Position numbers and translations under genes: made by a program. The notes beneath the pieces were generated by a model. The model saw nothing but the letters and a program-made list of their open reading frames with translations. It was not told the origin of the DNA and did no database searches. DNA of 44,166 bases from Bacteroidales bacterium (GTDB taxonomy: Bacteria > Bacteroidota > Bacteroidia > Bacteroidales > UBA932), in assembly GCA_017429205.1 (NCBI GenBank), contig JAFRPH010000046.1:1-44166 (forward strand), read 5' to 3'. Position 1 is the first letter of the stretch, and every line of letters starts with the position of its first letter. Shown one piece after another: positions 35,473 through 41,333 of this stretch.

Positions 35473-36126
35473 ATGAAAGTCGTCAATCTCGGCGAGAACC
35501 CCTCCGTTCTCAACAATTTCATCGCAGAGATGCGGGATGCCACCATCCAGAAAGACCGTCTCCGTTTCCGGACCAACCTCGAACGCGTCGGCGAAATCTT
35601 TGCCTATGAACTCTCCAAAGAGCTCACCTACACCGAGAAAGACGTGGTCACGCCCCTCGGCATCGCCCGCGTCGCGACCTGCGACACCGCGCTCGTGATC
35701 TCCACCATCCTCCGCGCCGGCCTGCCGCTCCAGAAGGGCGTCTTCAACTTCTTCGACCACGCCGAAACCGCCTTCCTCGCGGCCTTCCGCAAGTACGGCG
35801 CCGGCGACTACTTCGAGATCCGCGCCGATTATTGCACCACGCCGTCCCTGGAAGGCAAAACCCTCGTCCTGGCCGACACGATGCTCGCCACCGGCTCCTC
35901 CATCGAGGTCGCCATCGACAAGCTCATCCAGGAGGGCGGCAACCCCATCGCCATCCACCTGGTCTGCCCCATCGCCAGCGCCTACGCCGTGGACCACCTC
36001 GCCAAGCGCTTCGGCGACGAAGTCACCCTCTGGGTCGCCGCCATCGACGAGGAGCTCACCAGCCACAGCTACATCGTCCCCGGCCTCGGCGACGCCGGCG
36101 ACCTCGCCTTCGGCGACAAACTCTGA
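35473..36126 (+). CDS. upp: Uracil phosphoribosyltransferase
   Basis: The 217-residue salvage enzyme makes UMP from uracil and PRPP. It has the PRPP motif LVLADTMLATGSS, the flexible loop after VISTILRAGLPL and the uracil-binding C-terminus YIVPGLGDAGDLAFG. The length is standard. It has its own promoter. The first palindromic unit of the left array (36154-36186) stands 27 nt after its stop and can serve as its terminator. Confidence 0.96.
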   Translation: MKVVNLGENPSVLNNFIAEMRDATIQKDRLRFRTNLERVGEIFAYELSKELTYTEKDVVTPLGIARVATCDTALVISTILRAGLPLQKGVFNFFDHAETAFLAAFRKYGAGDYFEIRADYCTTPSLEGKTLVLADTMLATGSSIEVAIDKLIQEGGNPIAIHLVCPIASAYAVDHLAKRFGDEVTLWVAAIDEELTSHSYIVPGLGDAGDLAFGDKL

Positions 36127-36143: not shown

Positions 36144-36285
36144 CGTCCATAATAGTGTAAAACGCCCCCGTTTTACACTTTTTTTTGCTCCCCAAGCAGA
36201 ATAAGTGTGAAAAGGGCCATTCCGCACTTATCTCCTATCCCACTTCCATAATAAATGCATAATCGCCCTTCCCACACTATTTCGA
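36144..36285 (+). repeat. Left palindromic array flanking the RAYT (three units, 50-nt period)
   Basis: Three units start with AGTGT at 36154, AGTGT at 36204 and AATGC at 36254, exactly 50 nt apart. Each has a matching CACT box 21-22 nt later (36176, 36225, 36275), so each unit is an imperfect inverted repeat: AGTGY, about 16 nt, then CACTT. Units are preceded by CCATAAT or GCAGAAT. The outermost (36154-36179) is perfect: AGTGTAAAACG/CGTTTTACACT. The inner sequence varies between units, so this is not a CRISPR array. A matching array lies at 37458-37600. Confidence 0.85.
36154..36186 (+). terminator. Hairpin terminator formed by the first array unit (serves upp)
   Basis: AGTGTAAAACG (36154-36164) pairs perfectly with CGTTTTACACT (36169-36179) around CCCC and is followed by eight T (36179-36186). 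It stands 27 nt after the upp stop, so the repeat unit doubles as its terminator. Confidence 0.85.
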
Positions 36286-36436
36286 ACGTTCCGTATGGCA
36301 GCCATCCTGCGGGTGATTAACCGGAAGGAACAGAATCCCTGGCTAGTAGTTCCTCAAACCTTTGATGAGGATCATAAGAAAAGCGCAAAGAATCGTAAGA
36401 ATCATAAAAAGTTGACTGAAACAACGCCGGCCTCCA
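36286..36436. other. Intergenic DNA between left array and RAYT promoter
   Basis: No gene, tRNA or clear hairpin is seen in these 151 nt. A short A-rich, lower-GC stretch (GAATCGTAAGAATCATAAAA, 36390-36409) contains two direct copies of AATC(G/A)TAA. The continuation to 36491 carries the RAYT promoter. Confidence 0.5.
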
Positions 36437-36466
36437 TTGTATTCCGCAAAGGCTTTCCTATGTTTG
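36437..36466 (+). promoter_or_regulatory. Promoter of the RAYT gene
   Basis: TTG (36437-36439) and TATGTTTG (36459-36466) are 19 nt apart, matching the -33/-7 pattern of Bacteroidota. The ATG at 36492 follows after 25 nt. Confidence 0.72.
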
Positions 36467-36491
36467 CATCAAAACAGAACGGCTTGCAGCG

Positions 36492-37451
36492 ATGGAACAG
36501 TATGTCAAATGGCCGCCTCCGACCGAGCGGCAGATCGAATGGATGCAGGAACAGTTGTTCCGCGAATCCGGACCCTTTTATCATCTCAGTACGAAACCGC
36601 TCGAGAGCGGGCTAATTTTTGAATGCGACGATGAGCGGAAGATTGCCATTAACCTGATAGCCGTCACTGCGAAAGAATTTCAAATTGACATTCTCGCTTT
36701 CGCCTTGATGAGCAATCATTTTCACTTCATCATTCAGGGTGAGTTGGTCGACGGCCTGGCCTTCTTCCATCGCCTGAAGAAAAGGCTGTCGAACTACCTC
36801 GCGCGAAGGGGAAGGCCAGGCATACTGAATTCCGTCAATGTGGACCCGGACACGCCGGCCATCAGCAGCCTGACCCAATTACGGAATGAAATCGCTTATG
36901 TCATTCGTAACCCCTATGTCGCCCGAGTCGATGTGAACCCTTTCGCTTATCCCTGGTGCAGCGGATATCTCTACTTCAATCCGCTATTGAACAGCCTATC
37001 TTCCAAGAGCGTAAACGAATTGAGTTACAAAGAGAAAAGAAAGATGACCCGGATGACGAACCCCATTCTGGATTCGCAGTTGCGGGTCCGGGACGGGATG
37101 ATTGCCGCGGAGAGTTTCGTGAACTACAAACTGGTGGAACGGTTGTTTCCCCATGCGCGAAAGTTTACCTGGTGGGTGCTCAAGAATGTGGAGGCGCAGG
37201 TCGAAACATCTGTGCGGCTGGGCGAAAAACCCAACTTGAACGATGACGAACTGTTCATCACGGCCCAGCAACTGAGCCGGACGGAATATGGTCGCGACAG
37301 TGTGAAAGAGTTGCCTCTCCAGCAGCGGAAAGAGCTGGGAGTTCTGCTCAAGAACAAATGGGGTGCTTCCAATGGTCAGGTGGCCCGGATTGCCCAACTG
37401 GACCAGCGGACTGTGGACGAGATGTTTCCACTGACAGCCAAAAAGAGATAA
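36492..37451 (+). CDS. REP-associated tyrosine transposase (RAYT, Y1/HUH) with C-terminal HTH-like tail
   Basis: The 319-residue protein has an IS200/Y1-type transposase domain. The HUH motif reads FALMSNHFHFII (H76, H78), and the candidate catalytic Tyr is Y137 or its neighbours in NEIAYVIRNPYVARV, matching the Y-I-x-x-N-P pattern of RAYTs. Residues about 170-280 are of unknown type. The end (LLKNKWGASNGQVARIAQLD, 284-303) looks like a helix-turn-helix. HUH transposases nick and join single-stranded DNA at hairpins. Imperfect palindromic units with a 50-nt period flank it (36144-36285 and 37458-37600), the RAYT/REP arrangement. GC content is lower than in neighbouring genes, suggesting transfer. 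The gene is intact. Confidence 0.88.
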   Translation: MEQYVKWPPPTERQIEWMQEQLFRESGPFYHLSTKPLESGLIFECDDERKIAINLIAVTAKEFQIDILAFALMSNHFHFIIQGELVDGLAFFHRLKKRLSNYLARRGRPGILNSVNVDPDTPAISSLTQLRNEIAYVIRNPYVARVDVNPFAYPWCSGYLYFNPLLNSLSSKSVNELSYKEKRKMTRMTNPILDSQLRVRDGMIAAESFVNYKLVERLFPHARKFTWWVLKNVEAQVETSVRLGEKPNLNDDELFITAQQLSRTEYGRDSVKELPLQQRKELGVLLKNKWGASNGQVARIAQLDQRTVDEMFPLTAKKR

Positions 37452-37457
37452 TGATTC

Positions 37458-37600
37458 TCTCAGGAAAAGTGCAGAAACTGCCGTACTACACTTCTTCCGT
37501 GCATTCTGGGCAAAAGAAGTGCAGAAACGCCAGTAGTACACTTATTCCCTGCGGCGCAGACAGAATCAGTGCGAAGTGAGGCTTTTTACACTTTTTTCGT
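37458..37600 (+). repeat. Right palindromic array flanking the RAYT (three units, 50-nt period)
   Basis: Three units start AGTGC at 37468, 37518 and 37568, exactly 50 nt apart, each with CACTT 21 nt later (37489, 37539, 37589). The first two share GTGCAGAAAC and TACACTT; the third, GTGCGAAGTG...TTTTTACACTT, is followed by a T-run (37593-37597). Units run in the same direction as the left array. The array begins 7 nt after the RAYT stop and ends about 45 nt before miaB. Confidence 0.85.
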
Positions 37601-37646: not shown

Positions 37647-38972
37647 ATGAAGAAAGCCTACATAGAGACATACGGGTGCCAGATGAACGTGAACGACACG
37701 GAGGTCATCTTCTCCATCCTGGCGGGAGAGGGATATGAGCGGACGGAGTCGATGGAAGAGGCGGACCTGATCATGGCGAACACGTGTTCCGTGCGCGACA
37801 ATGCGGAGCAGCGGATCTGGGGCCGGATCGAACAGTTCAACCTGCAGCGCAAGCGGCGCCCGGGCGTCGTGGTGGGCATCGTGGGCTGCATGGCGGAGCG
37901 CCTGAAGGACAAGCTGCTGGATACGCGGAAGGTGGACCTGGTCGTGGGCCCGGACGCCTACCGGTCGCTGCCGCGGCTGCTGAAGGCCCTCACGCCGGAC
38001 CAGCCCCAGATCGACGTCCTCCTTTCCCGCGACGAAACCTACGCGGACATCACCCCCGTCAGGACGGACAAGAACGGCGTAAGCGCCTTCATCTCCATCA
38101 TGCGGGGATGCAACAACGTGTGCTCATACTGCGTGGTGCCGTACACCCGCGGGGCGGAGCGCTCGCGAGACGCGCACTCCATCGTGCGCGAAGCGTGCGA
38201 CGTGTTCCAGAAGGGCTACAAGGAAGTGACCCTGCTGGGCCAGAACGTGGACAGCTACCTCTGGAAGACGGCCGATGAGACCGTGAACTTCGCGGAACTG
38301 CTCCGGCGCGTCGCCTCGGTGAGCCCCGAGCTGCGAGTCCGTTTCGCCACCTCCCATCCGAAAGACATCAGCGACGAAGTCATCGAAACGATGGCCGCCT
38401 ACGACAATATCTGCAAGCACATCCATCTTCCCGTGCAGTCCGGCAGCTCCCGGATGCTGGAGAAGATGCGCCGGAAATACGACCGGGAATGGTACCTGGA
38501 GCGGGTCGCCAAGATCCGCAGCGTAATGCCCGACTGCGGCCTCACGACCGATGTCATCGCCGGTTTCTGCTCCGAGACGGAGGAGGACCACGCCGCGACG
38601 ATGAGCCTGATGGAGGAGGTCGGCTTCGACTGGGCCTTCATGTTCGCCTATTCGGAGCGCCCCGGCACGCTCGCCGCCCGGAACTATCCCGACGACGTCC
38701 CTGCAGACGTGAAGACCCGCCGCCTGAACGAAATCATCGACCTGCAGAACCGCAAGTCCCTCGAGAGCTACCGGAGGGACATCGGCAAGCGCTTCACCGT
38801 CCTGGTCGAGGGCCCGTCCAAGCGGAATCCCGACGACCTCTGCGGCCGCGCCTCCAACAGCAAGATGTGCGTCTTCCCCGGCGGCGGCCACCGCACCGGC
38901 GAGTATGTCGATGTCCAGGTGGTCGACTGCACAAGCGCCACCCTCATCTGCCAATTGATCGAAACCACATAG
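37647..38972 (+). CDS. miaB: tRNA-2-methylthio-N6-dimethylallyladenosine synthase
   Basis: The 441-residue radical-SAM methylthiotransferase adds the 2-methylthio group to i6A37 of tRNAs. The N-terminal domain has the cluster cysteines in [24 protein letters not shown] and VGCMAER. The radical-SAM motif CNNVCSYC has C155, C159 and C162 as cluster ligands. A C-terminal TRAM domain follows ([13 protein letters not shown] onward). The length is standard. It directly follows the RAYT and its right array, and the glpK start is 2 nt after its stop. Confidence 0.96.
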
Positions 38973-41278: not shown

Positions 41279-41296
41279 GCGAAAGACGAATCGAAA

Positions 41297-41326
41297 AAAG
41301 GGCGGAACCGGTTGGTTTCGCCCTTT
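41297..41326. terminator. Bidirectional terminator between glpF and rpoN
   Basis: AAAGGGCGGAACC (41297-41309) pairs with GGTTTCGCCCTTT (41314-41326), with one G-U pair and a GGTT loop. A-rich sequence precedes and T-rich sequence follows, so it can end both convergent transcripts. Confidence 0.9.
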
Positions 41327-41333
41327 CGCCTTT

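Follow-up and report, generated by a model that had tools for sequence, protein, structure and literature searches.

The 44,166-nucleotide (nt) contig JAFRPH010000046.1 of the Bacteroidales assembly GCA_017429205.1, referred to throughout as the window, encodes a RAYT-like HUH/Y1 transposase of 319 residues (36492..37451, forward strand) that is flanked on each side by three hairpins repeating in steps of exactly 50 nt. Comparison with relatives of the gene reveals that this step, or register, tracks the RAYT lineage, being 50 nt in the clade of the window and 51, 52, or 53 nt elsewhere. It is very probable that the RAYT owns a private, register-locked family of hairpins. The system as a whole is likely best explained as a RAYT-type (TnpA-REP-like) single-strand DNA transposase with private hairpins that resemble repetitive extragenic palindromes (REPs), and would represent an undescribed Bacteroidales variety. 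We favor, with rather less assurance, the idea that the RAYT mobilizes the hairpin units, and give somewhat under even weight to the idea that the distance between paired hairpins causes the register.

All six units are placed on the forward strand. Upstream of the gene, unit U1 (36154..36179) starts with AGTGT, reads AGTGTAAAACG...CGTTTTACACT and precedes a run of Ts, U2 (36204..36228) also starts with AGTGT, and U3 (36254..36278) starts with AATGC and has degenerate arms (AATGC/CACACT). Downstream, D1 (37468..37492), D2 (37518..37542), and D3 (37568..37592) all start with AGTGC. The units were identified from the sequence (all six), a repeat search (U1 and D1 to D3), and a chance test for three palindromes at period 50 (all six). 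The repeat search detects the downstream family with spacings of 50 and 50 and identities of 83% and 61%. A strict unit pattern matches only U1 among the six, while a general covariance model recovers U1, U2, and, weakly, D2 (E 1.3), as well as a terminator-like hairpin at 41294-41330. In the chance test, the upstream array scores 16.0 (shuffled mean 11.2, maximum 15) and the downstream array 15.0 (shuffled mean 10.6, maximum 14), values reached on neither side in 300 dinucleotide shuffles. When periods from 34 to 71 were scanned, the observed score was attained only at 49-50 upstream and only at 50 downstream.

The same kind of register is found around related genes. In a first survey, the best self-match lag was determined in 400-nt flanks with a threshold of 31/50, which was reached by 33/68 upstream and 41/69 downstream flanks, with the two sides swapped for minus-strand loci among L001-L030 and with L001/L032 and L005/L053 being the same contigs. 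The lag is 50-52 in 57 of these 74 passing flanks and the doubled 100-104 in 11. Among 400-nt control pieces from the same loci, 23/368 reach 31, with a lag of 51 once and of 53 twice. A further 58 paralogue loci gave lags of 51-53 in 17/57 and 18/58 flanks. When 124 loci were pooled, with 450-nt flanks and a threshold of 33/50, 100/245 flanks passed, 85 of them with a fundamental period of 50 (12 flanks), 51 (46), 52 (25), or 53 (2). Some duplicates were removed from the pooled period, tree, and orientation sets, in which close pairs such as L028/L110 and L061/L062 were kept. Loci that could be measured on both flanks have the identical period in 28/33 cases and periods differing by at most 1 in 31/33. 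In a FastTree phylogeny of 122 RAYTs, of which 69 are labelled with a period of 50-53, the labels require 14 changes, compared with a mean of 28.7 and a minimum of 23 in 300 shuffles. The count is 15 without one manual change, in which L036 was relabelled from 52 to 50 because its array advances by 50 nt at a time, apart from a few deviations of 1 nt. The window clade has period 50 and its sisters L038 and L039 have period 51, so that the 50-nt register put forward in the original prediction holds for the clade of the window and gives way to 51, 52, or 53 in other RAYT lineages. Longer flanking periods were observed at L022, L024, L125, and L129 (74, 77, 85, and 83, respectively). A 50-nt-type lag was found in 0/6 flanks of three Flavobacteria relatives (L069-L071), two of which share repeats between their flanks (direct/inverted scores 23/19 and 28/34) with no 50-nt period.

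As read from the sequences, many relatives carry two-sided private arrays, with stems that differ yet remain palindromic. The stems are AGTGY/RCACT in the window, TGTGYA in L032, AATTGTGYA in L033 and L040, GGGGCA in L038, and TCCTCA in L046, and they surround a recurrent core resembling AAAAnnGCCnnTTT. In a covariation set of 35 units from 30 loci, pairing cells amount to 77.6% (54.8% when shuffled), cells changed on both sides number 132 (53.5 shuffled), and the covariation score reaches 0.653, compared with 0.229 for shuffled sets and at most 0.183 when slid. In 48/85 loci the upstream flank of a RAYT matches its downstream flank with a score of at least 20, while flanks of different RAYTs within one genome do so in 0/228 comparisons, with a maximum of 15. 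Each unit is palindromic alone and the units repeat directly, with the direct comparison beating the inverted one in 61/67 loci that score at least 20. Because the window units are highly symmetric, the predicted common direction of all six is hard to establish from the window alone; it gains support from relatives with periods of 50-53, where the direct orientation scores above the inverted one in 44/47 loci. The hairpin foot carries a GT(A/G)G head in 0/31 cases on the gene strand and 1/31 on the other, where ~3 would be expected by chance, and an assignment to classical REPs with a GTAG foot was rejected on these counts. In 41 units searched for a shared spacer motif, no flanking column exceeds 0.54 bits.

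Units also occur away from RAYT genes, and the RAYT-less arrays, of which the clustered ones mostly have two or three units, keep the same register. A pattern built for the L033/L036/L040 type of unit has 28, 44, 5, 8, and 9 matches in five draft genomes, counting those at RAYT loci, with 0 or 1 for a backward control; the pattern is strict, and these counts are therefore lower bounds. Outside the RAYT contig positions, the matches listed form 12 clusters and 12 singles, in a listing that omits genome G069 and part of G062 and that groups one G068 cluster (C23:25907) with the RAYT contig, although it is located at the upp-glpF junction. The original prediction had treated units unconnected to RAYT genes as evidence against it: such units do exist, some of them single, but the clustered ones keep their spacing, with intervals below 200 nt outside the RAYT contig being exactly 50 in 16/17 of the cases among the matches listed and 184 in the other. 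When nine RAYT-less singles were re-read with a looser pattern, five were found to have a neighbor 50-51 nt off; centre distances from this pattern spread over 48-52 because its ends are variable. In genome G022, two RAYT-less doublets are spaced by 52, matching its RAYT arrays. In two species, a single unit-like hairpin with changed arms lies 3′ of the same gene (L072 in genome G001 and L227 in genome G067); it may be either a terminator or an ancient unit. Loci of G062, G067, and G072 (e.g. L079, L196, L222, and L226) also contain several copies of a different, GC-rich repeat, ~160-185 nt long and with its ends inverted (GGGTCCGGGGCGGGCC...CCGGACCC), some of which directly follow RAYT-less arrays.

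These arrays bear on two simpler histories. In the first, a palindrome segment of ~50 nt was duplicated in tandem and then decayed by substitutions only, which would keep the spacing and make the RAYT irrelevant to the register. Near-identical tandem arrays do exist (L004, L048, and L097), and between the close genomes G062 and G067 an orthologous RAYT-less array, compared by eye, has changed by whole steps from four units in the former to two in the latter. However, RAYTs with unrelated unit sequences share periods of 50-53 that follow the RAYT tree, and RAYT-less arrays of unlike units at separate sites hold 50. At a second orthologous site in G062 and G067, the unit sequences differ while the spacing is 50 in both, within a stretch that is 91% identical, arrays included. 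The window units themselves are strongly diverged, with 17-28 of 50 positions identical between pairs and 34 in one pair, yet its four intervals contain no indel. We consider this history improbable: the register survives sequence divergence in paralogues, orthologues, and RAYT-less copies, so that one recent tandem duplication is insufficient. The same evidence upholds the proposal that the arrays are tied to a RAYT-like gene and that the register is no accident of the locus.

In the second history, RAYT-less arrays are deletion scars, formed when the direct arrays on either side of a RAYT recombined and the gene was lost, as in solo long terminal repeats, with whole cassettes spreading and the doublet itself being immobile. 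The direct match between two-sided arrays described above would permit such deletions. G067, however, has eight clusters off the RAYT contig and a ninth at L229, compared with a single RAYT gene observed next to units of this kind. Three of its sites (L222, L224, and L226) share one A-B hairpin doublet, with one site on a short, possibly chimeric contig. At one site compared through 330-nt flanks in seven relatives, array and RAYT are absent save for G067, although no systematic search for RAYTs at such sites was made. Deletion scarring is an unlikely account of the RAYT-less arrays. L224 joins a left flank resembling that of L226 to a right flank resembling that of L222, as would result from array recombination or a chimeric contig.

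The transposase is supported by its open frame, motifs, alignment, and predicted fold. Its HUH motif, NHFH, spans residues 75-78, and the putative nucleophile, Tyr136, lies within YVIRNP. The predicted Y1 fold is nearest to the RAYT structure 4er8. By prediction and homology, the fold and catalytic residues point to a RAYT-type single-strand nuclease. Relatives are ~280-330 residues long, with variants of the tyrosine motif that include YVLRNP, YVLNNP, and YVNRNG, and among 53 of them the curated family model REP_Tyr_transpos is matched by 32 (E <= 0.01) and Y1_Tnp by 31 (E <= 0.1). Together with the coordinates, the chance test, and the open reading frame, the invariance of H76, H78, and Y136 across a 53-member alignment confirms the prediction of six units with an exact 50-nt period around an intact Y1/HUH gene. 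Past about residue 248, where the stretch aligned to 4er8 ends, the protein has a helical C-terminal extension with weak helix-turn-helix-like matches only. In an alternative role, the arrays would be operators in which double-strand sites about five helical turns apart bind the helical C terminus for autoregulation rather than transposition. The palindromic sites, the period near five turns, the position of arrays upstream of the gene, and the weak helix-turn-helix-like matches all fit such a role, to which we assign only a slight chance.

Under the favored explanation, the RAYT would bind its own hairpins when they fold in single-stranded DNA, probably that of the lagging strand, and Tyr136 would cut and join DNA beside them. 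Binding and cutting are suggested by the privacy of the arrays, the covariation of the stems, and RAYT biochemistry in the cited part of PMC8266576. The working substrate would be a head-to-tail pair of hairpins ~51 nt apart, comparable to the left and right ends of a very small IS200/IS605 element; both the conservation of the register and the existence of RAYT-less doublets suggest such a pair. Units would spread, arrays would gain or lose whole register steps, and out-of-register pairs would go unused and then decay. More tentatively, the direct doublet at a lineage-fixed distance of 50-53 nt could be a minimal two-ended mobile element, with up to about ten RAYTs per genome each driving its own doublets via a private stem code and reading distance as well as sequence; if so, the stems would be free to drift with the enzyme and the register hardly at all.

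Several observations weigh against this explanation. No period could be obtained for 145/245 flanks or 44/122 RAYTs, and the periods of some clades are different (74, 77, and 83-85). Neither excision nor an empty target site nor a circle was observed, and mobility is an inference. The window protein scores 21.2 bits against Y1_Tnp (cut-off 23) and 28.9 bits against REP_Tyr_transpos (cut-off 80). Copy numbers in the five genomes are modest, and four of the nine re-read singles (L227, L228, L230, and L238) have no partner under the looser pattern. The covariation rows were picked as hairpins, so that pairing is partly built in, and there is no excess of pairs with both-side change (11 versus 11.6 shuffled) or of further pair types (35 versus 33.6 shuffled). 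At L008, L102, and L142, which have periods of 50-53, the inverted orientation scores above the direct one.

Close parallels are found in the RAYT/REP systems, or REPtrons, of Gammaproteobacteria. According to the cited sections of these studies, the RAYT there has two flanking inverted REPs with a GT(A/G)G head and usually more than 100 REPs per genome (Nunvar 2010, PMC2817692). The Bacteroidales system shares with REPtrons the HUH/Y1 fold (4er8), adjoining palindromes, one private repeat type per transposase, apparent co-evolution, and genomic copies elsewhere (PMC2817692; Corneloup 2021, PMC8266576). In contrast to REPtrons, its hairpins are direct and head-to-tail, lack the GT(A/G)G foot, and keep a register of 50-53, the protein has an extra C-terminal part, and copies in the genomes counted number tens or fewer, a lower bound given the strict pattern. 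Because of the direct orientation and the absent head, we regard it as a variant that works like RAYT/REP rather than as a classical member. In REPINs, as described for SBW25 in the part of Bertels and Rainey 2011 (PMC3116915) cited here, doublet distances peak at 71 and 110 bp, 93% of doublets are inverted, and ordered tandem REP arrays exist at other distances. REPINs resemble the present doublets in that fixed-distance pairs are the likely replicating unit and each RAYT has a distinct cluster, but a REPIN is an inverted pair folding as one hairpin, whereas here a direct pair consists of self-folding units. Bacterial interspersed mosaic elements of E. coli and relatives are likewise regular hairpin arrays, some flanking a RAYT gene, with alternating orientation in the cited account (PMC2817692) in contrast to the single orientation here.

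By phylum, the nearest system is TnpA-Y1 subclass 2.6 of Bacteroidetes, which in the cited sections of Quentin 2018 (PMC6006769) has "atypical secondary structures" beside the gene and copies elsewhere, for which those sections state no spacing. These structures give the idea of a Bacteroidota pair some precedent, although the subclass motifs differ: NH[LIV]H, YIH[QN]NP, and 179, taken as a length, compared with NHFH, YVIRNP, and 319 residues here. The cited passage of the motif table in that source contains no YVxRNP subclass, in a comparison made by motif rather than by tree, and YIHQNP is present in the Flavobacteria relatives L070 and L071. Subclass 2.1, or TIRYT, shares the long C-terminal extension and allows NHFH, but the cited portion describes terminal inverted repeats without REP-like sequences, unlike the arrays here (PMC6006769). 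The subclass also has a C-terminal helix-turn-helix domain; our protein has a helical C terminus with weak matches to such domains. IS200/IS605 elements also have a lone Y1 gene amid same-orientation hairpins, but here orthologues are mostly syntenic, paralogues are strongly diverged rather than nearly identical copies, and several hairpins lie on each side; an IS200 element with recent copies was ruled out by the orthologue synteny. BrickBuilt, a miniature inverted-repeat transposable element with a minisatellite from Porphyromonas gingivalis, is similarly from Bacteroidales, dispersed, and internally tandemly repeated, but has ISPg1/ISPg9-like terminal inverted repeats, and the cited part of its description mentions no RAYT link, hairpin, or palindrome (PMC4596501).

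The comparison bears on the mechanism by which RAYTs mobilize REPs and on the identity of the replicating unit. One genus offers many natural RAYT/hairpin pairs with different stem codes and with registers 1-3 nt apart, a set well suited to exchanging enzyme, stem, and spacing when single-strand cleavage is assayed. Should the register prove to be the distance between paired hairpins, the transposase would constrain substrate geometry more than sequence, which would explain the joint drift of hairpin and enzyme. Relatives of the RAYT occur in 32/37 genomes of the nearest genus group and in 0/24 single genomes of other families in the order (E <= 1e-5), with at most 10 matches per genome in the former, counting fragments. 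A wider contig scan gave 41 loci, chiefly in Bacteroidales/Bacteroidia metagenome-assembled genomes, many labelled ruminant gut, with one labelled Fibrobacter and three from Flavobacteria. A protein search returned 644 proteins, and at least three of the 120 listed are annotated "REP element-mobilizing transposase RayT".

The window gene lies between upp (uracil phosphoribosyltransferase, 35473..36126, forward strand), its left neighbor with synteny in several relatives, and a radical S-adenosylmethionine gene on the right (37647..38972, forward strand) that we take to be miaB-like, partly from its domain make-up. With upp, miaB, and glpK in place of cas neighbors and with diverged repeats, a CRISPR-like array was rejected. 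The position of U1 behind upp, the T run after it, and the single related hairpin that lies 3′ of one and the same gene in both G001 and G067 would be expected if the hairpins acted in RNA, as terminators, mRNA-stabilizing structures, or a small RNA array. Such a function does not explain why the register is shared, why the units are private to one RAYT, or why RAYT-less arrays are in the same register, and we consider it extremely improbable.

This neighborhood is common to 8/10 orthologue loci (L031-L040). L038 is on a 3.2-kb contig, and L039, with 0/7 other probe genes within 3 kb, is located elsewhere. The gene order is upp RAYT miaB glpK in the window, L031, L032, and L036 (order I), has miaB-glpK-glpF inverted in L033 and L040 (order II), and has RAYT-miaB-glpK-glpF inverted in L034, L035, and L037 (order III). 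Where compared, arrays lie at several breakpoints of these local inversions: at the glpF-upp junction in both order III genomes examined and at glpF-rpoN in one order I genome (G062). None is present at the glpF-rpoN junction of the window or at the miaB-rpoN junction of both order II genomes. Recombination between arrays is a plausible, though not proved, cause of the inversions.

Between the upstream array and the gene, TATGTTTG (36459..36466, forward strand), seen in the sequence and in orthologue flanks, is presumably a promoter -7-like box, matching the Bacteroidota consensus TAnnTTTG. A 106-residue open reading frame at 36295-36615, with no Pfam match and probably not a gene, overlaps the RAYT start and a conserved leader, AAGAAAAGCGCAAAGAATCGTAAGAATCATAAAAA...ACTGAAACAACG (36376..36426, forward strand), that was recognized by eye in orthologue flanks. 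In the leader and its orthologues at L031-L040, repeats resembling AAGAATCATAA are visible by eye ~10 nt apart.
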